A stretch of DNA of 64,000 nucleotides. Origin: Janibacter sp. DB-40 (GTDB lineage Bacteria > Actinomycetota > Actinomycetes > Actinomycetales > Dermatophilaceae). How positions within the stretch are numbered: position 1 is the first letter of the stretch; each line of letters opens with the position of its first letter. Below the pieces are notes generated by a model that was not told the DNA's origin, did no database searches, and saw nothing but the letters and a program-made list of their open reading frames with translations. The position numbers and the translations under genes were made by a program. The stretch covers positions 2,356,001-2,420,000 of the forward strand of contig NZ_CP120360.1 of assembly GCF_029510815.1 (NCBI RefSeq), written 5' to 3'. This document shows positions 10,212-63,761 of this stretch, piece after piece.

Positions 10212-12835
10212 CGCGGCCTGACCGATGTCGCGAGTGCATCAGCCGCCTCGAGCGGGCCCGGCATGGCGAGCCGGCGGAACTCCCCCGCCGTTCGCTCGAG
10301 CAGTGTCGACACCGTTTCGTCCTCGTCGGTCCGGTGATCAGGTCCGAGGAGGGTGAGGGTGCGGGCAAGACCGAGGCGACTGAGTGCCGTGAACGGCCGT
10401 GCCCCGATCCGGACATTCATGGCGATGGCCTCGCGATAGTGCCCCAGCGCCTGCTCGGGCCGACCGGCGACGATGGCGTAGTCGGCCAGGGACCGCGCGA
10501 CGGCGCCATCGCTGAAGACCCCACCGGAGCCGTCTCCGCTGTACGCGTGCGCGAAGGGAAGGAACAACTCGTAGGCCGTCGCGCACACGTCCACGTCACC
10601 CAGCAGGACCGCGACGGCTGCGATCTGGCGGACGGTGCCGGCCCACCGGACGCCGACGGCGAGGGAGCGCGGCACGTGACGGAACTCCTCGAACTCCGCA
10701 CGCGCCCTGTCGAGGTCGCCGGCCAGCGCCGAGACCATGGGCAGCTGCACCCGCACCAGTGGCAGCGGCGGAGCGCGACGGATGACGTCGCGCCAACCAT
10801 CGGGCTCGTCGTCGAAGAGACCCCGCAGACGCATCATCTCGAACCGGAACGCATGGTCCATGGCGATCATGGACAGATCACCCATGCGTACAGCGATCTC
10901 ACGGGCGGCGTCGTTGCAAGCACCTGCCGCGGCGAAGTCGCCGTGCAGCGCCTCGCGAACAGCCAGGAAACGTAGATGATGCCACCGCGCCAGGACCGAG
11001 CCGCGCTCCCGAGCCACTCGATCGAGGTCACTCAGGCCCTCGTCGACCGCGCCCATGTCGCCGAGCTGGACGGCAGCATCGATGCGCCACAGATGCCCCC
11101 ACAGGGCGGCGATCGGCTGACCGGCAGCCGAGCCCAGCTGGGTCGCCCGCCGGCCCAGCTCGAGTCGTTCCCGCACCGTCTGCGGGATCGAGATCGTCAG
11201 GTGCCACGCCGCGATACACTCCAGGAGGGCGGCCGGGTCCCCGGACACCTCCGCCTCGGCCAGCGCGGCGGCAGCGAGAACGGCCGCCTCGGGCCCATCG
11301 CCGGTCTCTGCGGCCCCGATGGCGATCTGGGCGCGGAGGCGAGCGCGCGTCGCGTGGTCGCCGGGATCGACCAAGCTCAGCGCGCGGGCTGCGAGCCGCG
11401 GGATGATGCGGTTCGCGTCCGGGTCGCCCAGTCCGTGGACCACGAGTGCCGCCTGGGCCACGAGGTCTGCGCGGTGGCACCGCTCGGCCAGATCGGCAGC
11501 GTGCACACAGCAGTCGAGGCTCTCGCGCACGCGACTTGCGAGGTACAGGGCCTCGGCGCGACGAATCACCAGCCGGGCCCGCTCCTCGGCGTCGACTCCG
11601 CACGCCTCAGCAGCGGCCACGGCCAGGGCGGCGAAACCGGCCGCGTCGTCGAACGCAAGCACGGCACGTGCGTCATCATCGGCACGCTGGGCCCACCGCA
11701 TGGATCCGCGGGCCCCCTCCGACCCTCCGGCACGGTGCCAGTGGTGGGCGATGGAGCCAGCGGCGCTCTCAGGGCGATACTGCTCCAACACCTCGGCGGC
11801 AGGGCGGTGCAGGTCCCTGCGGCGACCAGCGGGGACTTCGCCGTACACCGCATCGCGGATCAACGCGTGCTGGAACCTCAGCTCGCCCGTGTCGTTCTCC
11901 TCGATCAGCAGTCGAGTGGCGACGGCATCGTCCAGTAGCGCCCGCACCGGGCCCACCGAGGCGGTGACCATGGCGGCCAACACATCCGGGGACACTCGTT
12001 CACCCAGGACCGCGGCGGCCTCGACGAGCTCGCGAGCATCCGGACCCAGCGGCGCGACCTTCGTTGCGACGATGCGCCGCAGATGGGGTCGTTCGCTCAT
12101 GAGTTGACCGAGGACTTCCCCACCACCACGCGACGTGTCCCGGCCAGCCAGCTCCTCGACGAGGAGGCGGATCAGCAGGGGATTGCCATTCGTGGCGTGC
12201 TCCAGCATCTTCGCGAGCTCCACCAGTCCGACATCGCCTCCCGACAGGTGGGCCAGCCACCTGACGATCTCATCGGTGGCCAAGCCGGCCAGCACGATCG
12301 ACGATGCCGAGTCGCCGCGCGCGAGATCCGGCCCGGCGTCGGCGAAGGGACCGTGAACCCCGTCGCGACCGGTCACCACGACCATGATCCGGCTCTGGTG
12401 GAGCTCCGCGCACAGGTGCCGCAGCAACAGCAGCGACGTCCGATCGGCCCAGTGCATGTCCTCGAGAACCACCAGCAACCCGCCGTCGTCCGCGCGAGCG
12501 CGCAGCAGGTCACAGATCGCGACGAAGAGCCGAAACCGTGCGGCACTCTCGGGTTCGCTGCCGTCAGAGGATGGCAGGGACCTCGTCTCGGGCCACTCCC
12601 GCATCGCTCGCAACCACGGCCACAGCGGAGGCGCGCCGGGATCATCGATGGCGTAGCCGGTCGCTACGCCCATGCGGGCGCCACGGGCCGATTCCACCGC
12701 GGCATCGGCCAGCCGCGTCTTGCCGATGCCCGCCGGCCCGGTCACCAGCAGGAGTCGGCCACGACCCGCTCGGGCCTCCACGAGCGCACGCTCGACCTTC
12801 GCGAGCTCGGCGGTCCGTCCCACGACACCGGTCAC
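10202..12835 (-). CDS. MalT/LAL-like ATP-dependent regulator lacking its in-frame HTH
   Basis: 877 residues. The N-terminal AAA/NACHT-like domain has Walker A TGPAGIGKTRL near residue 33 and Walker B LLVVLEDMHWAD near 120. About 500 Ala-rich helical residues follow, in the pattern of the TPR-like sensor domain of large LuxR regulators. The protein ends at 10202, exactly where the family's C-terminal LuxR HTH should begin; that HTH is intact just beyond, in another frame. GTG 12835 follows a GATACT element by six bases, suggesting a leaderless message. As read, the protein would bind ATP but not DNA. It diverges from a YceI gene. Confidence 0.85.
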   Translation of the reverse strand: MTGVVGRTAELAKVERALVEARAGRGRLLLVTGPAGIGKTRLADAAVESARGARMGVATGYAIDDPGAPPLWPWLRAMREWPETRSLPSSDGSEPESAARFRLFVAICDLLRARADDGGLLVVLEDMHWADRTSLLLLRHLCAELHQSRIMVVVTGRDGVHGPFADAGPDLARGDSASSIVLAGLATDEIVRWLAHLSGGDVGLVELAKMLEHATNGNPLLIRLLVEELAGRDTSRGGGEVLGQLMSERPHLRRIVATKVAPLGPDARELVEAAAVLGERVSPDVLAAMVTASVGPVRALLDDAVATRLLIEENDTGELRFQHALIRDAVYGEVPAGRRRDLHRPAAEVLEQYRPESAAGSIAHHWHRAGGSEGARGSMRWAQRADDDARAVLAFDDAAGFAALAVAAAEACGVDAEERARLVIRRAEALYLASRVRESLDCCVHAADLAERCHRADLVAQAALVVHGLGDPDANRIIPRLAARALSLVDPGDHATRARLRAQIAIGAAETGDGPEAAVLAAAALAEAEVSGDPAALLECIAAWHLTISIPQTVRERLELGRRATQLGSAAGQPIAALWGHLWRIDAAVQLGDMGAVDEGLSDLDRVARERGSVLARWHHLRFLAVREALHGDFAAAGACNDAAREIAVRMGDLSMIAMDHAFRFEMMRLRGLFDDEPDGWRDVIRRAPPLPLVRVQLPMVSALAGDLDRARAEFEEFRHVPRSLAVGVRWAGTVRQIAAVAVLLGDVDVCATAYELFLPFAHAYSGDGSGGVFSDGAVARSLADYAIVAGRPEQALGHYREAIAMNVRIGARPFTALSRLGLARTLTLLGPDHRTDEDETVSTLLERTAGEFRRLAMPGPLEAADALATSVRPRDR

Positions 12836-49346: not shown

Positions 49347-50416
49347 GGGTGTTGATGTGGCTCAGTCGCGGCGCGGAGATCCCCGGAGGTCACCGTGTGC
49401 AGATGGAGCACACCGCGCGGGCGCTACGCGGGCTCGGGGTGGAGGTCGAGGAGCACCTCGGGCCCCGGCTTCCCGAGGGGTCCTGGGACGTGGTGCACGG
49501 CTTCCAGCTCGGCGCGCAGGAGGTGGCCGGGGCCCGACGACGGGGCGTGCCCGTGGTGATGTCGACCATCTACTGGGGACTGGCGTACACCACCTCCGGC
49601 GGCGCGGGACGAGGTTCCACCGCTCGGGACGCGTTGGGGCGTGGCCGTCGCGGGATCCGGTACCTCACCGCAAGCCTGAAGGGCCGGGAGCACCTCAGCC
49701 GTTTGGCGTTGCGGGAGATGGCCGCCGAGCTGGACCAGGTCAGGGCCTGGTCCACGGCAGACCTCCTGCTGCCCAATGCCGACGGGGAGGCGCAGCACAT
49801 CCGGGAGGACCTGGGCGTGCTGACCGAGACCGTCGTGGTGCCCAACGCCATCGACGCCGACCTCTTCACCCCGGGCTTCGACCGACCGCGCGACGCCGGA
49901 ACCGTCCTGTGCGTCGGGAGGATCGAGCCGCACAAGAACCAGCTGGGCACGATCACGGCCCTGCGCGGTCTGCCGGGCACGTCCCTGATCGTCGTGGGTC
50001 CACCACACCCGCACCACGCGGCCTACTACGAGCAGTGCCGACGGGCTGCCACTGGCAATGTGACCCTGCTGCCAGGCGTGGACCACGCGGACCTGCCCGC
50101 CCTGTACGCGCGGCATCGCACGCACGTGCTCGCCAGCTGGTACGAGACGACCGGACTGGTCTCCCTCGAGGCGGCAGCGTCCGGGTGCACCGTCGTCACC
50201 ACCGACCGCGGTCACGCCCGTGAGTACTTCGGTGACGACGCCCACTACTGCGACCCGGCTGCACCCGCCTCCATCCGTGCCGCCGTCACGTCCGCCCTCG
50301 CTGACGAGCCGTCCCGGCGACTGCTGGACAGGATCACGACGCGGTACACGTGGGCCGATACCGCGCGGAGGACCCTCGACGCCTACGTGAGTGCGTTGGA
50401 CCGCCGACATGCGTGA
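49343..50416 (+). CDS. GT4 glycosyltransferase
   Basis: 357 residues from ATG 49343 (ATGA overlap). RVLMWLSRGAEIPGGHRVQM is the N-terminal loop; VPNAIDADLFTPGFDRP, VLCVGRIEPHKNQLGTITAL and WYETTGLVSLEAAASGCTVV form the donor-binding half. It overlaps the flippase-like gene by eight bases, so export and assembly are coupled in translation. Confidence 0.88.
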   Translation: MRVLMWLSRGAEIPGGHRVQMEHTARALRGLGVEVEEHLGPRLPEGSWDVVHGFQLGAQEVAGARRRGVPVVMSTIYWGLAYTTSGGAGRGSTARDALGRGRRGIRYLTASLKGREHLSRLALREMAAELDQVRAWSTADLLLPNADGEAQHIREDLGVLTETVVVPNAIDADLFTPGFDRPRDAGTVLCVGRIEPHKNQLGTITALRGLPGTSLIVVGPPHPHHAAYYEQCRRAATGNVTLLPGVDHADLPALYARHRTHVLASWYETTGLVSLEAAASGCTVVTTDRGHAREYFGDDAHYCDPAAPASIRAAVTSALADEPSRRLLDRITTRYTWADTARRTLDAYVSALDRRHA

Positions 50417-52193
50417 ATTCATTGGTCATGTCCGGCGCGTCTTGGACCGGAGGACGAAGACCAAGCTGATGCTGGGCTCCTTGGGCCTGATCACCCTCGC
50501 GCTCCTCGATATGGTGGCTGTCGCGCTGGTCTACCCCATGGTGTCCCTCGCCTCAGGAGTCACCCCTGATTCCCGCATCCTGGACCCCATCCGCCAGTTG
50601 TCTACGGGCAACGACACGCACAGCCTGCTCGTCACGACGGCGGTCATGGTCGTAGCGCTGTTCATCGCGAAGTCCGCAGCCTCCATCGCCTTCAATTGGT
50701 GGCTAGCTGGTCTGACGAACCGAAGTCGCGCCGCGGTCTCGACCCACCTCCTCCGGGTCTACCTCACGACTCCGTATGGTCAGATTTCCCAACGGACAAC
50801 GGCGGATCTGCTCAAGGTGCAGCAGGACGCTGTGAATCAGTTCATGCTCGCCGGGGTCTACGCATTGGTGAACGGAGTGGCCAACATGGCGACCATCGTC
50901 GGCCTCGGTGCCGTGCTCTTCTACACAGCACCCCTTCAGACGACGGTGTTGGTCGGGTACTTCCTGCTCACCGCAGTTCTATACCTGCGCGTCGTCAGGC
51001 CAGCCACCGAGCGCGCCGGTCGCGAAACGATTTCGTCAGCCGGGCTCACTTGGCGTTCTGCGATGACAGCCCTCGGCGCGGTGAAGGAGATCCAACTGCG
51101 CTCTGCGGAACTGCCTTTCGTCCATCAGTACGACAACGCCGTGCAACGCGCAGCCCAAGCTCACCGTGTTTCCGGCTTCATCGCAGGTCTCCCCAGATAC
51201 ATCCTCGAAGTGCTCTTTATCCTGGCCGTCGGACTTGCCATTGTCCTCAGCTCAGACACTGAGGGCGGCGCAACTCTTGGGTTGCTGGGCGTCTTCGTGG
51301 CTGCGGGATTCCGGCTACTGCCAGCCGTGACTGGGCTGCTCGGCAACATCTCGACATTGACAGTGTCCGAGGAGTCGGCTCGGTACGTTGCCCGTGACTG
51401 GAAGACTTTCGACGACGCGACCCGCGAGGCGTCGGCCATGCCGCTACCCATGGAGCGCGAACTTGTCCTGAGCGAGGTCTGCTTCCAGTACCAGGACGCA
51501 GCCGACCCCGTACTCGACCACGTGAGCCTGCGCGTCCCGAAGGGGTCATCCGTGGCGCTCGTTGGTCCCAGCGGCTCGGGCAAGACGACCCTCGTCGACC
51601 TCGTTCTCGGCTTTTACGAACCGACATCCGGGTTGATCACGGCCGACGGAATCGATGTCTTCTCCGACATCAGCGCGTGGCGGGCGAACATCGCATATGT
51701 CCCACAGGACGTCTTCCTCATCGAGGGGACGATCGAGGACAACATCGCTTTCGAGGCTGACCGCGCTGACGAGTCTGCACACGCCGCTTTACTATCGCAG
51801 GCAATCATGCAGGCCGATCTGGAGGGTCTCATCGCGGGCTTGCCGGACGGCGTCCGAACGCAAGTTGGAGAACGCGGGTCCCGGCTCTCGGGTGGGCAGA
51901 AGCAGCGGATCGGCATGGCGCGTGCTCTGTACAGGAGACCACGTCTCCTCATCCTCGACGAGGCCACCTCCGCGCTCGACAACGCGACGGAGCAGCGGGT
52001 CTCAGGGGTGATCCACGGTCTCGGAGAGGACGTCACGACGATCGTCGTCGCACACCGTCTCTCGACGGTCAGGGAGGCCGATGCCATCGTGCTTCTCGAG
52101 GAGGGGCACGTCAGTGCCATCGGCACCTTCGAAGAATTGCGGGCCTCCAGCTCCTCGTTCGCCGACCTGGTTCGATTGGGAGACCTCACATGA
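50409..52193 (+). CDS. ABC exporter, probable lipid-linked oligosaccharide flippase (PglK-like)
   Basis: 594 residues. An N-terminal six-helix exporter domain (about 20-310) is fused to an ATPase domain with Walker A GPSGSGKTTLVDLVLG, signature SRLSGGQKQRIG and Walker B LLILDEATSALDNAT, then the switch His in VAHRLS. All catalytic residues are present. Its place among glycosyltransferases suggests it flips a lipid-linked glycan, as PglK does. G+C is visibly lower than in surrounding genes, as for the next gene, hinting at separate acquisition. Confidence 0.88.
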   Translation: MREFIGHVRRVLDRRTKTKLMLGSLGLITLALLDMVAVALVYPMVSLASGVTPDSRILDPIRQLSTGNDTHSLLVTTAVMVVALFIAKSAASIAFNWWLAGLTNRSRAAVSTHLLRVYLTTPYGQISQRTTADLLKVQQDAVNQFMLAGVYALVNGVANMATIVGLGAVLFYTAPLQTTVLVGYFLLTAVLYLRVVRPATERAGRETISSAGLTWRSAMTALGAVKEIQLRSAELPFVHQYDNAVQRAAQAHRVSGFIAGLPRYILEVLFILAVGLAIVLSSDTEGGATLGLLGVFVAAGFRLLPAVTGLLGNISTLTVSEESARYVARDWKTFDDATREASAMPLPMERELVLSEVCFQYQDAADPVLDHVSLRVPKGSSVALVGPSGSGKTTLVDLVLGFYEPTSGLITADGIDVFSDISAWRANIAYVPQDVFLIEGTIEDNIAFEADRADESAHAALLSQAIMQADLEGLIAGLPDGVRTQVGERGSRLSGGQKQRIGMARALYRRPRLLILDEATSALDNATEQRVSGVIHGLGEDVTTIVVAHRLSTVREADAIVLLEEGHVSAIGTFEELRASSSSFADLVRLGDLT

Positions 52194-55060: not shown

Positions 55061-55555
55061 ATGAGCGAAGGAACCACCACACCAGTCTCCCGCCGGACGG
55101 TGGCCAAGGGTGCTGCCTGGGCGGCACCGGTCATCCTCGGCAGCGCCGCGGCACCCGCGTACGCCTCCAGTCCGCCGCCTGTGGCGCCTGAACTCGATCC
55201 TCAGGCGTTCTGCAAGCACCCCGGTGAGCCCAAGCGCTATCACGTGGGCGTGATCTGGCAGAACACCCTGCCGTGCGAAACCACGGTCACGATCACAGCC
55301 ATCCAGCTCACACCCAATGCTTCGGGGGAACCCCCCGTCACCTTTCCCGGCTCCACCACCTTTTCGGTCAGCGCCAACTCCACGACGACCCAGGTGTACG
55401 ACTCGAACCTGACGGAGGCCAGCTCCAACGGAACGGTGACGGTGCAGTACACGTACACCGACTGCAGCGGCACCGTGGTTACCGAGACCGCGAGCCTCTC
55501 GGCTGCATCTCTGCCCCCGTGCCAGCAACTACGCATTAGCGACTACCCCCACTGA
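55061..55555 (+). CDS. Small Tat-exported protein of unknown function
   Basis: 164 residues, not recognised. The N-terminus (SRRTVAKGAAWAAPVILGSA, cut likely after AYA) is a twin-arginine signal peptide, so a folded protein would be exported. The mature part of about 125 residues is rich in Thr/Ser/Val with repeated beta-strand patterns and four cysteines (FCK, PCE, DCS, PCQ), suggesting a small disulphide-bonded beta-sandwich. It has its own promoter and a strong terminator, and lies inside the polysaccharide locus between a phosphatase and the Wzc-like gene. Confidence 0.8.
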   Translation: MSEGTTTPVSRRTVAKGAAWAAPVILGSAAAPAYASSPPPVAPELDPQAFCKHPGEPKRYHVGVIWQNTLPCETTVTITAIQLTPNASGEPPVTFPGSTTFSVSANSTTTQVYDSNLTEASSNGTVTVQYTYTDCSGTVVTETASLSAASLPPCQQLRISDYPH

Positions 55556-55633: not shown

Positions 55634-57040
55634 TCACTGCCCGCGGCCGCCGCTCGTGGCTTCGGCACGCCTGCGGCCCCTCCGGGTCTCGCTGGCCGCC
55701 TCCTGCTCGTAGGTGTGGTAGCCGTACCGGTACTCACCGCTGCTCTTGCCGGAGACGAAGTTGCGGGCGAAGCCCGAGACGCGGGCACCGACCGTGTCGA
55801 GCTGCTTCAGGGCCGCGACCAGATCCTTCTTCCGCGTCCGGTCCACGCCGACGACCATGACCAAACCGCCCGTCAGCCGCTCGATGACGACTGCGTCGAT
55901 GACCGGGACCACCGGCGGCGAGTCGATGAGCACGAAGTCGTACTCCTGCACCAAGGTCGTCAGCAGTGCCTCCATCGGTGCCGATCCGAGCAGCTCACTC
56001 GGGTTCGGCGGGATCTGGCCGGCGGGCAGCACGTCCATCCCGACGCTCCCCCACGGCTGGATGACGTCGTGCACCTCGGCGTCGCCGAGCAGCACCGTGG
56101 TCAGGCCGACGCTGCCCTCCATCCCGAGCGTGCGGGCCACGGACGGCTTGCGCAGGTCCGCGTCCACCAGGAGCGTGCGGCGACCGGAGTCGGCCATCGC
56201 GAGCGCGAGGTTGACCGCAGTGGTCGTCTTGCCCTCCCCGGGCATGGCCGAGGTCACGACGAAGGAGTGTCGCCCGGTGGTCACGTCGACGAACATCAGG
56301 TTGGTGCGCAGCCGTCGGATGGCTTCGGCATGTCGACCGTGGGGCTGCTCCTCGACACTCACCAACCCCTTGGACGAGGTGGACTCCAGCGGGAGACCCG
56401 CGAGCATGGGTGCATCCGAGTGGGCGCGGATGTCCTCCTCCCCTCGGACCTTGGTGTCCAGCGCGTGCCGGAGGAAGGCGAGACCGATCCCGAGCACGAG
56501 GCCGGCAAGCAGACCGAGCCCGATGTTGCGGACCGGGTCCGGTGACGTGGGGCTCGACGGCGGCGACGCCGGCTCGATGGGCGTGGAGATGACCTTCTGC
56601 CCGGAGGAGGCCAGCAGGGTGGAGAACTCACCGGCAACCGCCCCCAGCTGGGGGCCGACCTCGTTGGCCACCCGGGCCGCCTCTTGCGGGTCGGCCGCCG
56701 TGGCGGTGATGTTGAGGATCGACGTGGACCCGGTGACGTCGGCGGAGACGTGGACCGGGTGCCCCGGCTCCATCCCCAGCTCCTCGCGCAGCGGCTCGAG
56801 CACCGCCGGCGTGTTGAGGATCGACACGTAGGTCTCCAGGTCGTCGCTGGTCAGCGCAAAAACACCGCCCTGCGGGGTGTCCTGGACGCGCTCGGTGCTG
56901 AGATAGATCCGAGCACGCGCTTCGTAGACCGGAGTCGTCAGCAGCGTCACTGCCAGGGCCGCCAGCACGGCCAGCACGACGCACGTCGCGACCAACGTCC
57001 ATCGCGCCCGCAGGACACCAAAGAACTCGCTCAGCTGCAC
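55634..57040 (-). CDS. Polysaccharide co-polymerase / tyrosine autokinase (Wzc-like)
   Basis: 468 residues from GTG 57040 (AGGGG eight bases upstream). Two helices (about 16-36 and 170-190) flank an external Wzz domain. The cytoplasmic part is a BY-kinase with Walker A SAMPGEGKTTTAVNLALAM, Walker A' LLVDADLRKPSVART and Walker B FVLIDSPPVVP. The tail has a tyrosine cluster (YRYGYHTYE) followed by basic residues, the usual autophosphorylation site. It should set chain length and export of the polymer with the Wzy-like protein. No cognate phosphatase (Wzb) was found in the window. Confidence 0.93.
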   Translation of the reverse strand: MQLSEFFGVLRARWTLVATCVVLAVLAALAVTLLTTPVYEARARIYLSTERVQDTPQGGVFALTSDDLETYVSILNTPAVLEPLREELGMEPGHPVHVSADVTGSTSILNITATAADPQEAARVANEVGPQLGAVAGEFSTLLASSGQKVISTPIEPASPPSSPTSPDPVRNIGLGLLAGLVLGIGLAFLRHALDTKVRGEEDIRAHSDAPMLAGLPLESTSSKGLVSVEEQPHGRHAEAIRRLRTNLMFVDVTTGRHSFVVTSAMPGEGKTTTAVNLALAMADSGRRTLLVDADLRKPSVARTLGMEGSVGLTTVLLGDAEVHDVIQPWGSVGMDVLPAGQIPPNPSELLGSAPMEALLTTLVQEYDFVLIDSPPVVPVIDAVVIERLTGGLVMVVGVDRTRKKDLVAALKQLDTVGARVSGFARNFVSGKSSGEYRYGYHTYEQEAASETRRGRRRAEATSGGRGQ

Positions 57041-57134
57041 TGTCGACCCCTCCCCCGATCCGGACGACACCGCGCTCGGTGCCCCGACGGTAAGGTCAGT
57101 ATGACGTTTCTCACCGCTACGAGGAGTGTATAAG

Positions 57135-59096
57135 GTGCGGATACTGCGGATCTCGCACAGCGGTGTGGTGGATGCCTGGCGGGAGCGTGAGCGGGTCGTC
57201 CGCCGCCACGGCCACGAGGTCACCTCGGTGACCGCCCGGGTGTGGGACGAAGGGGGCCGCGACGTCCTCCTCCAGGCCCGGCCCGGTGAGGACGTCATCG
57301 GCGTGCGCACCCTGGGGAGGCATCCCGCCCTCTTTGTCTACGACCCCCGTCCGCTCTGGTCACTCCTGGGTCAGCAGTGGGACGCTCTCGACCTGCACGA
57401 GGAGCCCTTCGCCCTCGCCACGGCCGAGATCCTGCTCCTGCGAGCCCTGCGCCGCTCCCGCACCCCCTTCTGCCTCTACTCGGCCCAGAACATCGACAAG
57501 CGCTACCCACCCCCCTTCCGCTGGGTCGAGCGGTGGGCGCTGCGGCACGCCGTGGCCGTCAGCGTGTGCAACGCGCAGGCGGGGCAGATCGTCACCCGCA
57601 AGGGCCTGACGGGGCGGGCGGTCCTCATCGGGCTGGGCATCGACAGGACGCGGTTCACCCACGGACCGGCGCGGCCCGACCGCGGGCCGGCCGTGCAGGT
57701 CGGGTACGTCGGCCGGCTGGCGTCGCACAAGGGCGTCGACGTCCTCCTCGAGGCGGTGGCAGCGGACCCGCACCTGCACCTGACGATCGCGGGCGCCGGC
57801 CCGGAGGAGGAGCAGCTGCGGGCACGGGCGGCAGCTCCCGACCTCGCCGGACGCGTGGAGTTCCTCGGGTCGGTGGCCACGGACGACCTGCCCGATGTCT
57901 ACCGGAGCGTGCACGTCCTCGCGGTTCCCTCCCGCACGACACCCGGGTGGCAGGAGCAGTTCGGTCGGGTCGCGGTCGAGGCGATGGCCTGCGGCACCCC
58001 CGTGGTGGCCAGTGACAGCGGTGCCCTGCCCGACGTCGTGCACGGAGCCGGCCTGCTGGTTCCACCCGACGACGCCACCTCGTTGGCTGCGGCACTGCGC
58101 CGTGCTGGCGCCGACCCCGATCTCTCGGGGAGAATGCGCCGCGAGGGGATCGTGCGCGCGAGTGCGTACGACTGGGAGTTCATCGGGGGGCAGTACGTGA
58201 CGCTGTACGAGGACATGGCGAAGGGCGGTGACCGGGTCGTCGGCGACGGCCTCGAGATCATCGTCGTCGCCTTCCACTCGGCGCGGCTGCTGCACGACAC
58301 CCTCGCCCCCATCGCGCACCTGCCGGTCACCGTGGTCGACAACTCCAGCGACCCCGCAGTGCTGCAGGTCTGCGACGAGCTGGGCGTGCGGTACCTGGAC
58401 CCCGGCCGCAACGGGGGCTTCGCCTTCGGCGTCAACCACGGACTCGCCCGCCGGCTGCGACCCGGCGCCGACGTGCTGCTGCTCAACCCCGACGCGGTCG
58501 TGGACGAGATCGGCGTCCGTGCGCTGCACGCTGCCCTCCACGAGGCCCCGGACCTGGCCAGCGTCGCCCCGGCACAGGTCGACGGGGCCGGGCGACCCGC
58601 ACGGGTGGCCTGGCCGTTGCCGACACCTTGGGGTGCGGCCCTCGAGGCGGTGGGACTCGGTCGACGTCGACGGGATGACTACGTCATCGGATCCGTGCTG
58701 CTGCTGCGCGCCCGGGCCCTGGAGCAGGTGGGTGGCCTTGACGAGTCCTTCTTCCTCTACGCCGAGGAGACCGACTGGGCCAAGCGGGCCGTCGACCTCG
58801 GCTGGCGCCACCGTCTCGTGCCGGAGGTGACGGCCCTCCACCTCGGCGCGGCGACGAGCTCGGACACCCGCCGCCGGGATGCCCACTTCCACGCCTCCCA
58901 GGAGCGGTACCACCGCAAGCACTTCGGGACCGTCGGCTGGCAGGCCACCCGGGCGGCCGTCGTCATCGGTTCCGCAGCACGGGCGGTGCTCCTCGACGGC
59001 GAGCGTGCGGCCGCCGCCCGGGAGCGGGCCCGCCGGTACCTGCGCGGACCGCTCGCCGTCGAGGCCGAGCTCCCCGGCGTCGGGGCCGCACCGTGA
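57135..59096 (+). CDS. GT4-GT2 fusion glycosyltransferase
   Basis: 653 residues. The N-terminal half (about 1-360) is GT4: RILRISHSGVVDAWRERERV, VGYVGRLASHKGVDVLLEAV, and EQFGRVAVEAMACGTPVVAS with E-x7-E. The C-terminal half (about 370-640) is GT2 of the rhamnosyl/galactofuranosyl type: LEIIVVAFHSARLLHDTLAP, NGGFAFGVNHGLAR, DVLLLNPDAV and YAEETDWAKRAV. Two sugars could be added by one protein. GTG 57135 is preferred to GTG 57126 because GAGGAG lies eight bases before it. GTGA couples it to the polymerase gene. Confidence 0.9.
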   Translation: MRILRISHSGVVDAWRERERVVRRHGHEVTSVTARVWDEGGRDVLLQARPGEDVIGVRTLGRHPALFVYDPRPLWSLLGQQWDALDLHEEPFALATAEILLLRALRRSRTPFCLYSAQNIDKRYPPPFRWVERWALRHAVAVSVCNAQAGQIVTRKGLTGRAVLIGLGIDRTRFTHGPARPDRGPAVQVGYVGRLASHKGVDVLLEAVAADPHLHLTIAGAGPEEEQLRARAAAPDLAGRVEFLGSVATDDLPDVYRSVHVLAVPSRTTPGWQEQFGRVAVEAMACGTPVVASDSGALPDVVHGAGLLVPPDDATSLAAALRRAGADPDLSGRMRREGIVRASAYDWEFIGGQYVTLYEDMAKGGDRVVGDGLEIIVVAFHSARLLHDTLAPIAHLPVTVVDNSSDPAVLQVCDELGVRYLDPGRNGGFAFGVNHGLARRLRPGADVLLLNPDAVVDEIGVRALHAALHEAPDLASVAPAQVDGAGRPARVAWPLPTPWGAALEAVGLGRRRRDDYVIGSVLLLRARALEQVGGLDESFFLYAEETDWAKRAVDLGWRHRLVPEVTALHLGAATSSDTRRRDAHFHASQERYHRKHFGTVGWQATRAAVVIGSAARAVLLDGERAAAARERARRYLRGPLAVEAELPGVGAAP

Positions 59097-60421
59097 GATC
59101 GTCCGGAGGGGCAGGGGTCGTCACCGTCACCGGCCTCGTCGCAGCAGGGGCCGGCGCCGCCGCCCTCGGCTGGATCGCCCCGCAGCAGCCGGCAGCGGCC
59201 CTCGCACTGGCGATCACGGTCCTCCTGCTCGGGATCTCGGCGGTGCGCCCCGTCACCGTCCCGCTGGTCGTCCTGCCCCTGCTCTACGTCGCAGCCAGGA
59301 CGGTCTACGGCGGGACCGATGTCTCCGTCTCGGACATCGCCCTGGCGGTCGGCACGCTCGCGGCACTCCTCTTCGGCCGACGGCCGTTCAGCCGCCCCCT
59401 GCGCAACCTGCTGTGGCTCACGGTCGTCTACCAGGTGGCCACTCTCTTCACGGTCGTGGCCAACCCCTACCCCGCCAACGCCCTGGACTGGCTCCACTCC
59501 TGGGTCCTCGTCGCCGGCGGGCTGCTCGTCGGCTGGAGCGTCGGGCGCGAGGGCGCGGGTCCTCTCGGTCTGAAGCTCATGCTGGCCGCAGCCGTCGTCC
59601 TGGCCACGTGGGTCACCGGGATCGGTGTGCTCCAGGCACTGGAGGGGAACCTCGAGCCGGTGTACCTCCCTCACGGGATGCACAAGAACTTCCTCGGGAC
59701 GATGCTGGGCACCACGGCCCTCATCGCCTACATCCGACCGATCTGGCTGAATCTGGGTCGACGGGCAGGGATGACCGTCTTCTGGTGGCTGGTGGTCGGG
59801 ATGGGGTTCACCCAGTCCCGCCAGGCCATCGTCGCCCTCGGTGTCGTCCTCGTCATCCTGGTCCTGCGCACGCACACCGACCGCCGTCGCTCCCGGGTGG
59901 TCCTCCTGGCCATCGTGCCCGCGCTCCTGGTCGTCCTCACCCTCGTGCGTGACCAGATCGCCAGCGGCAACGTGCACAACTCGTTCTTCACGCGCGTCGA
60001 GTCCTTCGCGGATGCCCTGTCGATCTGGCAGACCCAGCCGCTCGTCGGTGTCGGGCTGCGGTGGTGGTACACGGACCGCTTCTCCGCCGGCATCCAGCCA
60101 CCCAACGCCGAGATGGAGGTCCTCACCGCAGCGGGCCTCATCGGCCTCATCGGCTTCCTCGCCCTCATGGTCGGCAGCGTGGCGGTCCTGTGGCGGATGC
60201 CCCCGACGTACGGGATGCTCGCGGTCATGGTCGTCCTCGGACGATTCGTCCAGGGGCAGATGGACCTGTTCTGGGTGGCCGCCCAGACCTCCGTCCCGTT
60301 CGTCATCGCGGGGGTGTGCCTCGGCGCGTGCGCCCGTCACGAGCAGGGGGATGACGGTCCTGGCGAGCCGGCGACCGCCCGCGAGGACGCCCAGACGGCC
60401 GTGGGGGTCGGCCGCCCGTGA
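59093..60421 (+). CDS. O-antigen polymerase/ligase-like membrane protein (Wzy/WaaL type)
   Basis: 442 residues from GTG 59093 with about eleven helices. The large loop has MGFTQSRQAIVALGVVLVIL (the R-x-A motif region) and TQPLVGVGLRWWYTDRFSAG, resembling the P-x-x-G-x-G-x-x motif of the Wzy_C domain. Such proteins join repeat units or ligate chains at the outer face of the membrane. The C-terminal 30 residues are hydrophilic. GTGA couples it to the triple-fusion gene. Confidence 0.85.
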   Translation: MRSSGGAGVVTVTGLVAAGAGAAALGWIAPQQPAAALALAITVLLLGISAVRPVTVPLVVLPLLYVAARTVYGGTDVSVSDIALAVGTLAALLFGRRPFSRPLRNLLWLTVVYQVATLFTVVANPYPANALDWLHSWVLVAGGLLVGWSVGREGAGPLGLKLMLAAAVVLATWVTGIGVLQALEGNLEPVYLPHGMHKNFLGTMLGTTALIAYIRPIWLNLGRRAGMTVFWWLVVGMGFTQSRQAIVALGVVLVILVLRTHTDRRRSRVVLLAIVPALLVVLTLVRDQIASGNVHNSFFTRVESFADALSIWQTQPLVGVGLRWWYTDRFSAGIQPPNAEMEVLTAAGLIGLIGFLALMVGSVAVLWRMPPTYGMLAVMVVLGRFVQGQMDLFWVAAQTSVPFVIAGVCLGACARHEQGDDGPGEPATAREDAQTAVGVGRP

Positions 60422-63400
60422 GGATCACCCATCTCGTCCGCACCCCCAGCTTCGCCGGCGTGGAGCGGCACATCGCGGTCCTGGCCGCTGCGCAGCACGA
60501 TCGCGGGCACGAGGTGACCGTGCTCGGTGGCGACCAGAGACACATGCGCGCGGCCATCGACCGTGCAGGCGTCCGGCTGCTGCCGGCGACCGACCTGACG
60601 ACGACCCTGCGCCATCTCGCGGGCCCCGCGGGACGTGGCGCCGACGTCGTGGCGACGCACATGACCTCCGCCGACCTGACGGCGCTGGCCAGCCCGGCCC
60701 TCGCGCAGACCCCCATCGTGAGCACCCGTCACTTCGCCGCACGGCGCGGCTCGACCCGGGCCGTCCGCGCCGTGGCCGAGCGGGTGCAGCCCCGACTGGC
60801 TGCCGAGATCGCGGTGAGCGAGTACATCGCCGGCGCCCTGGACGTCGACGCGACCGTCATCCTCCCGGGGATCCCGGACCGGCCCGACGGGCCGGCGCCG
60901 TCCCGGCGGGACCGGACCGTGCTCGTCGCCCAACGTCTCGAGGCGGAGAAGTCGACCGACTCGGCCATCTCCGCCTTCGCCGAGTCCCGCCTGGCCGAGC
61001 ACGGGTGGCGGTTGGTCATCGCGGGGGACGGGTCCCAACGGGCCGAGCTGGAGGCGCTCGCGGCCCGGCTCGGCATCCGGGACGCCACGGACTTCGCGGG
61101 GCACCGCCGTGACGTCGACCGGCTCATGGCCGGCGCCGGCGTCCTCCTGGCCCCGTGCGCGACCGAGGGGATGGGCCTGACCGTCATCGAGGCGATGGCC
61201 TCGGGAACCCCCGTCGTGGCTGCGGCGGCCGGCGGGCACCTCGAGAGCGTCGGCGGTGTCACCGACGCGGCACTCTTCACCCCCGGGGATGCCGTGGACG
61301 CGGGCCGACTGCTCGCCGACCTGGCGAGCGATCCCGAGCGTCGTGACCGCTACGGACGAGCGCTCCGGGAGCGCCAGCGGCAGGTGTTCTCCGTCGCGGC
61401 GCAGGCGGAGGCCACGGACTCCCTCTTCCGACACCTCCTGGCCGGGAGCGACCTGCCCACCGCGCGCACTCAGCCGGGGCGGGACCTCGTCGTCATCTCC
61501 CTCGAGCCGTGGGACCGGGTCTGGCGCCGCAACCAGCACCTGCTGGCGGGGCTGCTGCGCGAGGACGCCTCCCTCCGGGTCCTCGTCGTCGAGCCCGCCC
61601 GTGATCCGCTGCACAGCCTGCGGACCGGGCACCCACCGAGGACTGGCCGTGATCTGCGCCGTGGACCCCACCTCCCCGGCGTCGGCCCGGACGCCCTGTG
61701 GCTCCTCGAACCGACCAAGGCGCTGCCCCGCCGCGTCGATGCGCACCAGGACGAGCGCTGGGCCGACGGCGTCCTCGCGGCCGCGAGCCGGCTCGGCCTC
61801 ACCCGACCTGTGCTCTGGGTCAACGACCCCCGCGGCGCCCTCGTCATGGAGCGCGCCGGGTGGCCGACGCTGTACGACATCACCGACGACTGGCTGGAGG
61901 CCGACCGCGATCCGGGTGCCCTGGCCAGGTTGACGGCCCACGAGGCCGCCCTGATGCGCCGTGCCGTCGAGGTCGTCGTCTGCTCGCGGACCCTCGTGGC
62001 GACCAAGTCGTCCCGCCGCCCGGTGACGTTGGTCCACAACGCCGTCGACCTCGGCGCGGTGGTACGGCCGACGACTCGTCCCGGCGACCTGCCCCCGGGG
62101 CCGGTCGCGACCTACGTCGGCACGCTCCACTCGGACCGACTGGACGTCGGGCTGTGCGAGGCGACGGCACGTGCGCTGTCGGGCCGGGGGACGCTCGTCC
62201 TCGTCGGTCCCGATGCACTGACCCGTGCCGAGCAGGACCGGCTCGACGGCGCAGGGGTCGTGCGACTGGGCGCGAAGGACCACCGGGTCGTCCCGGCCTA
62301 TCTCCAGCACGCCGACGCGCTGCTCGTGCCGCACGTCGTCGACGACTTCACCGACAGCCTCGACCCGATCAAGCTCTACGAGTACCGGGCAGTGGGCCGA
62401 CCGGTCATCACCACCCCGGTCGCCGGCTTCCGCGAGGCTGCCGACGACCGCCTCCGGGTCGTGGCGCCTGTCGACTTCCCCGATGCCGTCGCTGCTGCTC
62501 TCCCAGCCACGGACCGGTATCCGACCGGGGCGGAGCCCGAGGTGCCCGACTGGAGCGACCGGGTCCACGAGATGCGGGCCGTCATCGACCGCGTCGACTC
62601 CCACCGTGAGACCCCTGACGCCGACCCCGCCGGTGCGGACATCCCGGTCGAGGTGCGGGTACGCCTCGGGCACGCAGCCGCCCAGGTCCTCGCCCGACGG
62701 CACGGCCTGGACCTGCTGCACATCAAGGGCGACGCCCTCGACGAGCGGCTCGTGCACGCGGGTCGACGGGCCAGCGACGCCGACGTCCTCGTGCGTCCCG
62801 CCCACCTCGACCGGTTCCTCGCCGCGTGCGCGGAGGTCGGGTACCGCACGGTGAGCCGATTCGCCACCGGATCGCCCTTCGAGCACTCGACGACGTTGTG
62901 GCACGACGCGTGGGGGTACCTCGACGTTCACCGCCACTACCCCGGCATCGGGCTCCCCCCGGCGACTGCCTTCGACCGCCTCTGGTCCACCCGCACCTCA
63001 CGGACGGTGGCCGGGGTCGACGTCCCGACGCCGTCGCTGCCGGCCCAGGTGGGCATGCTCGTCCTGCACGCGGGTCGCACCACGCCGGGAGGCCAGGCCA
63101 GCGCCGACGTGCAGCACGCGTGGCACGGGGCGGACGCGGCCCGACGCGAGGCCGTGCGTCACTGGGTGCGGGAGTTCCTCGCGGAGGTCGCCTTCGCCGC
63201 AGGCACCGGGGAGCTGGGTTCCCTCCCCCCTTCGGCCGAGAAGGAGCTGTGGCTGGCGGTCACCCGGGAGGGACGACTGCAGGAGTGGCGTGCCCGGATC
63301 GCCGCTGCCCCGAACCTGCGCTCACGCGTTCTCCTCATGGCCCGGGCACCGCTGGTCAACATCGACCACCTCGCCCAGGAGCTCGGCCACCGGCCCTCGC

Positions 63401-63480
63401 GCCGCGAGATGGCCGTGGCCTTCCTCGACCGGGCCCGGCGGGCGGTTCGGGAGATCGCCCGACGAGGAGGTCGACGATGA
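60418..63480 (+). CDS. Triple fusion: GT4 + GT4 (TuaH-like) + NTP_transf_5-type nucleotidyltransferase
   Basis: 1020 residues in three parts. About 1-345 is GT4 (THLVRTPSFAGVERHIAVLA, VLVAQRLEAEKSTDSAISAF, TEGMGLTVIEAMASGTPVVA). About 355-720 is a second GT-B enzyme resembling TuaH-type transferases (LVVISLEPWDRVWRRNQHLL, TLYDITDDWLEADRD, KLYEYRAVGRPVITTPVAGF). About 745-1020 matches the uncharacterised nucleotidyltransferase family PF14907: LLHIKGDALDERL then RRASDADVLVRP, with the conserved Lys-Gly and D-x-D, and HDAWGYLDVHRHYPG. GTG 60418 overlaps the polymerase gene, and the end overlaps a PqqD-like gene. The target of the third domain is unknown. Confidence 0.85.
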   Translation: MRITHLVRTPSFAGVERHIAVLAAAQHDRGHEVTVLGGDQRHMRAAIDRAGVRLLPATDLTTTLRHLAGPAGRGADVVATHMTSADLTALASPALAQTPIVSTRHFAARRGSTRAVRAVAERVQPRLAAEIAVSEYIAGALDVDATVILPGIPDRPDGPAPSRRDRTVLVAQRLEAEKSTDSAISAFAESRLAEHGWRLVIAGDGSQRAELEALAARLGIRDATDFAGHRRDVDRLMAGAGVLLAPCATEGMGLTVIEAMASGTPVVAAAAGGHLESVGGVTDAALFTPGDAVDAGRLLADLASDPERRDRYGRALRERQRQVFSVAAQAEATDSLFRHLLAGSDLPTARTQPGRDLVVISLEPWDRVWRRNQHLLAGLLREDASLRVLVVEPARDPLHSLRTGHPPRTGRDLRRGPHLPGVGPDALWLLEPTKALPRRVDAHQDERWADGVLAAASRLGLTRPVLWVNDPRGALVMERAGWPTLYDITDDWLEADRDPGALARLTAHEAALMRRAVEVVVCSRTLVATKSSRRPVTLVHNAVDLGAVVRPTTRPGDLPPGPVATYVGTLHSDRLDVGLCEATARALSGRGTLVLVGPDALTRAEQDRLDGAGVVRLGAKDHRVVPAYLQHADALLVPHVVDDFTDSLDPIKLYEYRAVGRPVITTPVAGFREAADDRLRVVAPVDFPDAVAAALPATDRYPTGAEPEVPDWSDRVHEMRAVIDRVDSHRETPDADPAGADIPVEVRVRLGHAAAQVLARRHGLDLLHIKGDALDERLVHAGRRASDADVLVRPAHLDRFLAACAEVGYRTVSRFATGSPFEHSTTLWHDAWGYLDVHRHYPGIGLPPATAFDRLWSTRTSRTVAGVDVPTPSLPAQVGMLVLHAGRTTPGGQASADVQHAWHGADAARREAVRHWVREFLAEVAFAAGTGELGSLPPSAEKELWLAVTREGRLQEWRARIAAAPNLRSRVLLMARAPLVNIDHLAQELGHRPSRREMAVAFLDRARRAVREIARRGGRR

Positions 63481-63761
63481 GCGCGCTGGCGCCGTTCGTC
63501 GTCCCGCCGGACGTGGGGTGGACGTGCACCGTGGACGAAGGGGGTGCCCCCCGCGTCTTCGTCGCGCCGCTCCCGAGCGGTCCGGTGGACGTGCTCCCCG
63601 ATGAGTCGGCGATCATCTGGCTGGCCGCGGTCGAGGGCACCGGCCCCGTGGTCGACGAGGTCGCCCGCACCACCGGGCACCCACCCGAGGTGATCCGTGA
63701 GGACGTGGAGGCCTTCGTGGGCGAGCTCCTCGCACGCGGTTTCCTGGCCCGACCGGGGTGA
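63477..63761 (+). CDS. PqqD-like small protein (RRE-type)
   Basis: 94 residues, ATG overlapping the preceding stop (ATGA). The pattern VDVLPDESAIIWLAAVEGTG, then VVDEVARTTGHPPEVIREDV and a final FVGELLARGFL, is that of PqqD-family winged-helix proteins: a strand pair, L-x-x-x-a-x-x-I-W, and a C-terminal helix with the LxxxGF end. PqqD proteins bind peptides in RiPP pathways, but they also occur with PF14907 nucleotidyltransferases in polysaccharide loci, as here. A GACGAAGGGGG copy lies in its 5' part. No precursor peptide is seen in the window. Confidence 0.75.
   Translation: MSALAPFVVPPDVGWTCTVDEGGAPRVFVAPLPSGPVDVLPDESAIIWLAAVEGTGPVVDEVARTTGHPPEVIREDVEAFVGELLARGFLARPG

Follow-up and report, generated by a model that had tools for sequence, protein, structure and literature searches.

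An actinobacterial nucleotidyltransferase and RiPP recognition element that co-occur with an HprK-like kinase and N-terminally tagged exported proteins

The closest described counterparts of the system considered here are the linear polyphosphorylated peptides (LPPs), reported with their LppA/B/K/S/D/N components by Popov et al. 2026, in which a YxxP motif is bound by an RRE (recognition element of ribosomally synthesized and post-translationally modified peptides, RiPPs) and the kinase LppK phosphorylates LppA at S3, which is located 15 residues past the Pro of the motif (PMC13381572). Discrete lasso RREs recognize [Y/W]xxPx[L/V/I/F/A], and LPPs and paeninodins are stated to be restricted to Bacillota (PMC13381572). 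According to the excerpts considered of two reviews that treat pseudomycoidin, PsmN is required for the addition of one or two hexoses to the phospho-Ser of that peptide (PMC9266682, PMC8498205), and the portion consulted of a survey of ruminal lasso genomes gives an HPr kinase for 58%, PqqD for 46%, and a nucleotidyltransferase for 30% of the genomes studied (PMC7533575). Here, we analyzed a 64,000-nucleotide stretch of Janibacter sp. DB-40 (the window, C1:2356001-2420000 of a genome consisting of a single 3.35 Mb contig) that contains a polysaccharide locus in which a PF14907-type nucleotidyltransferase (NTase) domain is fused to two glycosyltransferase (GT) domains and followed by a gene for a PqqD-like RRE. 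What is new here is that this NTase/RRE pair is part of a larger module, together with an HprK-like kinase and N-terminally tagged exported proteins, a grouping that is well supported by the comparison of predicted genes among genomes. The comparison also suggests that the pair and the kinase may decorate a family of exported proteins marked by a common signal sequence of a special kind.

The tag follows the pattern RR-x7-W-x2-P-x13-[S/T], and in the window protein that carries it, encoded at 55061-55555, the corresponding residues are R11-R12 (55091), W20 (55118), P23 (55127), and S37 (55169); GAGGGGAAGTC lies upstream of the ATG of this gene. The pattern is gap-free in 21/21 aligned tags and is present in 60 of the 61 proteins found with the window protein (the best match being the protein itself or a near twin), the remaining one having His. 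These proteins have mostly just the N-terminus in common with the window protein, which itself has no NCBIfam match at E 10. The shorter motif [WY]xxPx[LVIAFY] was present in 20/21 aligned tags, 61/61 single-query matches, 27/27 tags from three further genomes (G271, G284, and G353), and 5/5 tags from distant loci, and in the same four sets Ser or Thr occupied the position 14 residues past the Pro (P+14) in 21/21, 60/61, 27/27, and 5/5, respectively. The set of 27 comprises regular-expression matches in 19 fetched stretches with no charged or certain polar residue in the nine residues after the Pro, and it is not wholly independent, as the profile that found these tags includes the P+2 and P+14 columns. 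The polarity filter dropped a further true-looking tag at locus L113, which has Ser at P+14 as well. The five distant tags were chosen by eye from loci L154-L163, and their RR-to-W part is variable. A crude signal-peptide control, with membrane proteins among its members, gave Ser or Thr in 6/49.

The Ser or Thr of the tag lies two residues past a typical A-x-A site, beside the predicted signal-peptidase site. The tag resembles a twin-arginine-type signal, and we infer that its bearers are probably exported by twin-arginine translocation (Tat). A control search for Tat signals mostly gave spurious frames, and the few true Tat signals inspected had no W-x-x-P. The genome of strain DB-40 encodes one tagged exported protein, while other genomes have up to 16 tag matches (G027), with 14 each in G271 and G284; in the latter two (L104-L111 and L112-L121, respectively), some tag genes are dispersed and others form small tandem groups, and the proteins that bear the tag are dissimilar in their other parts. 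In distant families, two tagged proteins (L154:7852-8397 and L158:10485-10844) were seen by eye to have a Pro-rich stretch followed by a terminal sortase anchor of the LPDTG/LAYTG type.

Gene content was compared across 197 related genomes, and each comparison is given as the number of genomes with both genes, the first only, the second only, and neither. Using a tag profile (E 1e-4), NTase and tag were distributed as 66, 1, 7, and 123 and kinase and tag as 70, 6, 3, and 118; NTase and kinase, both searched with queries from strain DB-40, were distributed as 66, 1, 10, and 120. For kinase and tag, the counts were 13, 0, 0, and 3 within the genus and 7, 0, 3, and 69 outside the family, which was taken as G000-G117. 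The window protein as a single query, a test free of the bias introduced by profile construction, gave 59, 8, 4, and 126 for NTase and tag. The NTase domain itself was found in 69/197 genomes at E 0.001, with two weak cases (G128, 2.4e-4; G158, 6.3e-4) dropped to leave 67, and 25 genomes with a best kinase match of E 1e-5 to 1e-3 were likewise dropped, leaving 76 of 101. One of these 25, G140, has a distant kinase (2e-14) beside a weak tag (2e-4) in a survey of the class, and G180, scored as carrying the tag without the kinase, has a kinase match at 1.6e-4. In that survey, which sampled 296 genomes of the class and counted kinases at E 1e-8, the distributions were 18, 24, 6, and 248 for NTase and tag, 28, 14, 7, and 247 for NTase and kinase, and 18, 17, 6, and 255 for kinase and tag, and all 13 genomes with a kinase below 1e-60 carry both NTase and tag at tool thresholds. 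Physical proximity was also evident, with 34/119 tag matches no more than 15 kb from an NTase match, whereas tags spread evenly over 3.5 Mb would be expected to give roughly 1.3.

Gene order was examined in the 36 fetched loci with a called NTase, a count that leaves aside L046, L047, L054, L070, and L071 for lack of a called NTase (the gene finder missed the NTase of L046 and L047, as well as the tag gene of the window). The RRE is adjacent on the same strand or fused to the NTase in 32 of these 36; it lies upstream in L043, L064, and L072, and NTase-RRE fusions are found at L069 (9574-10929) and in P0190. The four loci with neither arrangement are L057, L058, L066, and L068, and in the first two, a small unlabelled open reading frame (ORF) next to the NTase looks like PqqD. 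Hidden Markov models detected an HprK-like kinase in 16/36 loci, the L044 copy being an edge fragment and the L060 copy shortened, and a tag protein in 18/36 besides the window's own. At L040, tag, kinase, NTase, and RRE genes are consecutive on one strand, and none of the neighbors displayed there matches the polysaccharide genes of the window. The RRE adjoins the kinase in L154, L155, L156, L157 (a distant family), and L158. Pfam identifies the gene that follows as a GT2 in L154, L156, and L157, with a similar-looking copy in L155, and in L154 and L157, a divergent tag gene with an LPDTG-like end stands beside this RRE-kinase-GT row.

The kinases have an invariant P-loop in 14 aligned copies, and several carry a C-terminal RRE-like part (L122, 1e-9; L159, 4e-7; L054, which is the copy of strain DB-40 itself, 9e-5; L039, 8e-4), with weaker cases in L050, L056, and L040. 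Over the P-loop region they weakly resemble TIGR04352, HprK-related kinase A (23.4, 25.5, and 34.3 bits, where the cut-off is 200). The shortened L060 copy (10959-11366, 135 amino acids) matches two kinase parts and sits beside an NTase-RRE pair, and a longer kinase is encoded elsewhere in that genome. Genes resembling low-molecular-weight phosphatases recur near NTase or kinase genes, including L163:13853-14467 (PF01451) and, by eye, the eight genes of cluster c8.

An earlier note on this DNA, made from the sequence alone, had placed the NTase in polysaccharide assembly, proposing that it modifies the glycan or its carrier with the PqqD-like protein as an adaptor. In the version of this account considered here, the polysaccharide or its lipid carrier would receive a nucleotidyl or phosphoryl group from the NTase, the RRE would be an adaptor within the polysaccharide machinery, and the tagged proteins would merely be matrix proteins produced along with the polymer. 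The fusion of the NTase to two GTs and its coupling to a Wzy-like gene fit this account, as does the finding that Wzz, GT4-GT2, Wzy, and the counterparts of the two fused domains (GTa and GTb) are separate neighbors of stand-alone NTases in other genera (L042, L043, L044, L050, and L053). Wzz served as a control for polysaccharide loci (E 1e-20): it is present in 66/67 NTase genomes but also in 66/130 others, and inside the 132 Wzz genomes, NTase and tag were distributed as 59, 7, 2, and 64 with the window protein as query. The rarity of tags in Wzz genomes without the NTase (2/66) is left unexplained by modification of the polysaccharide, as are the RRE motif in the tag, the kinase-RRE fusions, and the L040 row, and we regard that account as unlikely. 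The link to polysaccharide synthesis holds, and a role of the PqqD-like protein as adaptor is consistent with the predicted genes. However, modification of the glycan or carrier by the NTase is not supported: the pair is strongly associated across genomes with HprK-like kinases and exported proteins bearing an RRE-binding motif, and therefore what the adaptor presents is most likely a protein.

A different explanation is that kinase, RRE, NTase, and tagged proteins share no reaction and simply accompany polysaccharide loci because of ecology. Polysaccharide genes do surround many of the NTases whose loci were examined, and presence of the parts is patchy, but the kinase of strain DB-40 co-occurs with the pair though unlinked to it, and neither the protein fusions among the parts nor the RRE motif in the tag would be expected on these grounds, making this explanation rather improbable.

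Several observations weigh against a shared module or against the role that we propose for it. The tag is found without the NTase in seven of the 197 genomes and without the kinase in three, and the kinase without the tag in six (G032, G086, G088, G090, G102, and G111); at the thresholds used, G129, G180, and G190 have the tag with neither kinase nor NTase, and G106 has the NTase with neither tag nor kinase. Of the 119 tag matches, 85 lie away from any NTase locus. The 21 rows of the tag profile were drawn from the vicinity of NTase loci in a subset of the 197 genomes, and this subset matches by construction; the genomes are also related, so that the Fisher p-values (1e-12 to 1e-43) overstate the association. 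In 11 genomes searched with the canonical Tat model TIGR01409, no tag appeared among the matches listed. In the LPP system, an S3T variant was not phosphorylated by LppK, while some tags have Thr, deletion of lppN had no visible effect, LppN alone showed none, and the authors suggest an outside partner (PMC13381572). The PsmN result could stem from an enzyme of the Escherichia coli host, according to the excerpts considered (PMC9266682, PMC8498205). Finally, the kinase of strain DB-40 is unlinked to the NTase/RRE locus. The earlier note had pointed to the sequence right of the window for an HprK-like kinase or a precursor; the genome does encode one such kinase, but far from the window, at G000:C1:142808-143914 (L054), and its sole tagged protein lies left of the fusion.

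The fusion protein (60418-63480, plus strand, GTG start, 1,020 residues) has the architecture GT4-GT4-PF14907, in line with the two glycosyltransferases and the nucleotidyltransferase read in the earlier note. On the uncut fusion, PF14907 scores 30.2 bits, slightly below its cut-off, while the cut-out domain passes (Table 1). The predicted structure of residues 745-1020 has a pLDDT (predicted local distance difference test) of 94.3 and has nucleotidyltransferases as its nearest folds; K770, G771, D787, D789, D836, and H838 are invariant, and the Asp triad D787, D789, and D836, which we take from family knowledge to be the catalytic residues, is kept in 33/33 aligned NTases. By the model and the alignment, the predicted nucleotidyltransferase fold and its Asp triad are intact in the fusion. 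MenT toxins were considered for this domain and rejected, as they are fold neighbors only. The GTb stretch 508-668 is TuaH-like (E 5.7e-9, yet 35.3 bits against a cut-off of 550), and no solved structure matched GTb by sequence at E 0.01. Among the best 7,993 candidates scored, at least 40 protein clusters, counting the query, have a match to the NTase part in a protein as long as a fusion (39 of 1,004-1,029 residues and one of 664), refuting an origin of the fusion by chance or frame artefact. The clusters other than the query show 52-78% identity, and for the seven further clusters with a named organism, this was Janibacter every time. Fused genes in the fetched loci belong to members of the genus (strain DB-40, G005, G012, G008, G010, and G006) and to G113, whose version (L039:5439-9629, 1,396 residues) has an additional GT domain. 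Outside these cases, the called NTase gene mostly encodes 240-310 residues, and the stand-alone NTase of L044 has no NCBIfam match at E 10. A second, distant NTase was noticed in Janibacter relatives (L057:9045-11179 and L058), the L057 copy adjoining a divergent tag protein and another Wzz.

The protein encoded by the overlapping downstream gene can confidently be assigned a winged-helix PqqD/RRE fold on its model, which consists of three strands and three helices, in agreement with the earlier reading. The only Foldseek match of this model below E 0.001 is the lasso-peptide RRE TbiB1 in complex with its leader peptide (template modelling scores 0.74/0.78), and a profile of 30 relatives matched the PDB chains of TbiB1 (1e-8), PbaB1 9x90 (6e-5), TfuB1 (8e-5), LppB 9x8z (1e-4), and PqqD (7e-4). 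Residue F80 aligns with F83 of PbaB1, which splits the leader pocket (PMC13381572), and the position holds Phe in 21/30 rows and Tyr in 3/30. D76 aligns with D70 of LppB, counted along the alignments, with Asp in 20/30 rows.

Because the tag has an LPP-like grammar within an export signal and RRE-kinase-GT rows occur in L154-L157, the tagged protein is most likely the substrate of kinase and RRE, with the NTase probably working on the phosphorylated product in partnership with polysaccharide GTs. The RRE would bind W-x-x-P-x-[V/I/A] in the twin-arginine-type signal before export, and the HprK-like kinase would phosphorylate the Ser or Thr 14 residues past the Pro. The phosphate would then be the site of action of the NTase, which would most likely attach a hexose, as PsmN is reported to do, or else a nucleotidyl or phosphosugar primer, and in Janibacter, the two fused GTs may extend the glycan or hand it over. 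After export and cleavage behind A-x-A, the decorated residue would be the second position of the mature protein. By analogy, the NTase would be the counterpart of PsmN and LppN. We put at about even chances the general proposal that NTase and RRE form a protein-modification module like those of the LPP and paeninodin RiPP systems but acting on exported proteins. The fuller picture, in which an actinobacterial twin-arginine signal serves as a RiPP leader whose W-x-x-P is read by the RRE, is phosphorylated in the cytoplasm at a fixed Ser or Thr, and through this phosphate anchors a polysaccharide-type glycan, via the PF14907 enzyme and GTs, on a genome-wide set of proteins, is possible but tentative.

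Other chemistry can be imagined for the NTase-fold domain. A pathway that ends with nucleotidylation (e.g., AMPylation or CMPylation) of the phosphorylated tag or of a partner, with the fused GTs acting separately, would suit the nearest folds and the Asp triad, but the PsmN products reported in the excerpt considered are hexosylated and not nucleotidylated (PMC9266682), and the GT fusion would go unexplained; we consider this extremely improbable. LicD/FKRP-like transfer of a phospho-alditol or similar group from a cytidine diphosphate-activated donor to the glycan is also highly improbable.

The remaining features of the locus are listed in Table 1. The fusion and RRE genes form the end of a four-gene run on the plus strand (57126-63761; GT4-GT2, Wzy_C, GT-GT-NTase, and RRE), with 4-base ORF overlaps at 59093/59096, 60418/60421, and 63477/63480; at the last of these, the fusion stop TGA and the RRE start ATG overlap as ATGA, as the earlier note had described, with GAGGAGG just upstream of the ATG. 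The Wzz/BY-kinase gene is divergent to this run. Past the right end of the window, the opposite strand encodes a bacterial sugar transferase (PF02397, 224.6 bits) and has another ORF with no Pfam match at E 0.1. An ORF resembling an ATP-binding cassette (ABC) exporter (50391-52193), judged by eye from its transmembrane and ATPase parts, belongs to the same locus. A role in defence was also considered and set aside, as the four proteins tested had no PADLOC match at E 0.01. Overall, the interpretation in the earlier note is partly supported.

Table 1. Coordinates (window positions) and supporting matches of the features of the Janibacter sp. DB-40 locus.
Feature	Position	Strand	Evidence
Tagged exported protein, 164 aa	55061..55555	+	Tag conserved in relatives; 61 proteins matched at E 0.001
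Wzz chain-length determinant fused to BY-type tyrosine kinase	55634..57040	-	PF02706 45.0 bits; TIGR01007 154.5 bits, cut-off 108
GT4-GT2 fusion glycosyltransferase	57126..59096	+	PF00534 122.8 bits; PF13641 25.0 bits, below cut-off 27
Wzy-like polymerase / O-antigen ligase family	59093..60421	+	PF04932 34.3 bits, cut-off 31.7
GTa, family-4 glycosyltransferase domain, residues 1-350	60418..61467	+	PF00534 108.9 bits, PF13692 90.1 bits
GTb, second GT4-like domain, residues 351-744	61468..62649	+	PF13692 44.9 bits, cut-off 27
NTase, PF14907 domain, residues 745-1020, stop included	62650..63480	+	PF14907 32.8 bits, cut-off 31.2
PqqD-like RRE, 94 aa	63477..63761	+	PF05402 25.0 bits, cut-off 23.4; model pLDDT 93.6

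Nucleotidyltransferases recur in lasso clusters, LPP clusters, and polysaccharide loci, and for LppN, a partner is the authors' guess (PMC13381572). The natural fusion to two GTs suggests a class of partner and provides a single assayable polypeptide, while with the tag, exported proteins so far labelled hypothetical become substrates that can be tested, and the kinase/RRE/NTase sets of actinobacterial polysaccharide loci gain a proposed function. If protein modification is correct, RiPP-type recognition would be linked to protein export and glycan attachment; if, in addition, a twin-arginine signal serves as the leader, this would constitute a new route by which proteins are sorted and glycosylated through a phosphate link, and the partner that the orphan NTases of lasso and LPP clusters lack would be identified. 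In open-licence PubMed Central, PF14907 as a word, HPr-rel-A names, PqqD with exosortase, and PqqD-like with nucleotidyltransferase and kinase were not found; PqqD with HPr kinase occurred in lasso papers only, twin-arginine with RiPP recognition element only in a hot-spring paper (by title), and PqqD with nucleotidyltransferase and exopolysaccharide only in a Pseudomonas genome paper (by title). Such word searches are blind to sequence motifs, so we do not claim the tag as undescribed.

Compared with LPPs, the system shares a discrete RRE, an HprK-like kinase (unlinked in this genome), an uncharacterized NTP transferase, and a polysaccharide-locus setting, as well as an N-terminal [Y/W]xxPx[hydrophobic] motif with a Ser 14-15 residues past the Pro and variable C-terminal parts. 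LPP clusters have an MsbA-like exporter, and the ABC exporter-like ORF at 50391-52193 was seen here by eye. The system differs from LPPs in being actinobacterial, in having as leader a twin-arginine-type signal with an A-x-A site, in having exported proteins as apparent substrates, with up to 16 tag matches per genome, and in the fusion of the NTase to GTs in Janibacter. Of the LPP precursor motif YxxPxVLxHQxIxFETxxS, W-x-x-P-x-[V/I/A] and a distant Ser or Thr are present and HQxIxFET is absent; because the full motif is absent, we do not file the system as LPP, although by analogy it appears to work like one. The paeninodin and pseudomycoidin systems (PadeK, PsmK, PsmN) likewise combine an HprK-like kinase, a nucleotidyltransferase, and a B1-type RRE, with phosphorylation of Ser followed by hexose addition in the excerpts considered (PMC8498205, PMC9266682), but there, the kinase targets the C-terminal Ser of a lasso precursor, whereas here, the target would lie in the N-terminal region of a protein destined for export. 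A further similarity is seen in DUF2063-associated RREs with DUF2282 precursors, where the RRE-linked precursors start with an export signal, of the Sec type in that case, but in the portion of the report consulted, no specific RRE motif was seen, and neither kinase nor nucleotidyltransferase is mentioned (PMC12710340). The likeness of the kinase to TIGR04352 covers the P-loop region, with scores far under the model cut-off. Cassettes of TIGR04352 carry PqqD and sit in exosortase/polysaccharide loci. In the PEP-CTERM/exosortase system, one shared tag likewise occurs on many unlike exported proteins and co-occurs with one processing set; here, in contrast, the tag is N-terminal, and instead of a protease, it is accompanied by a kinase, an RRE, and an NTase.

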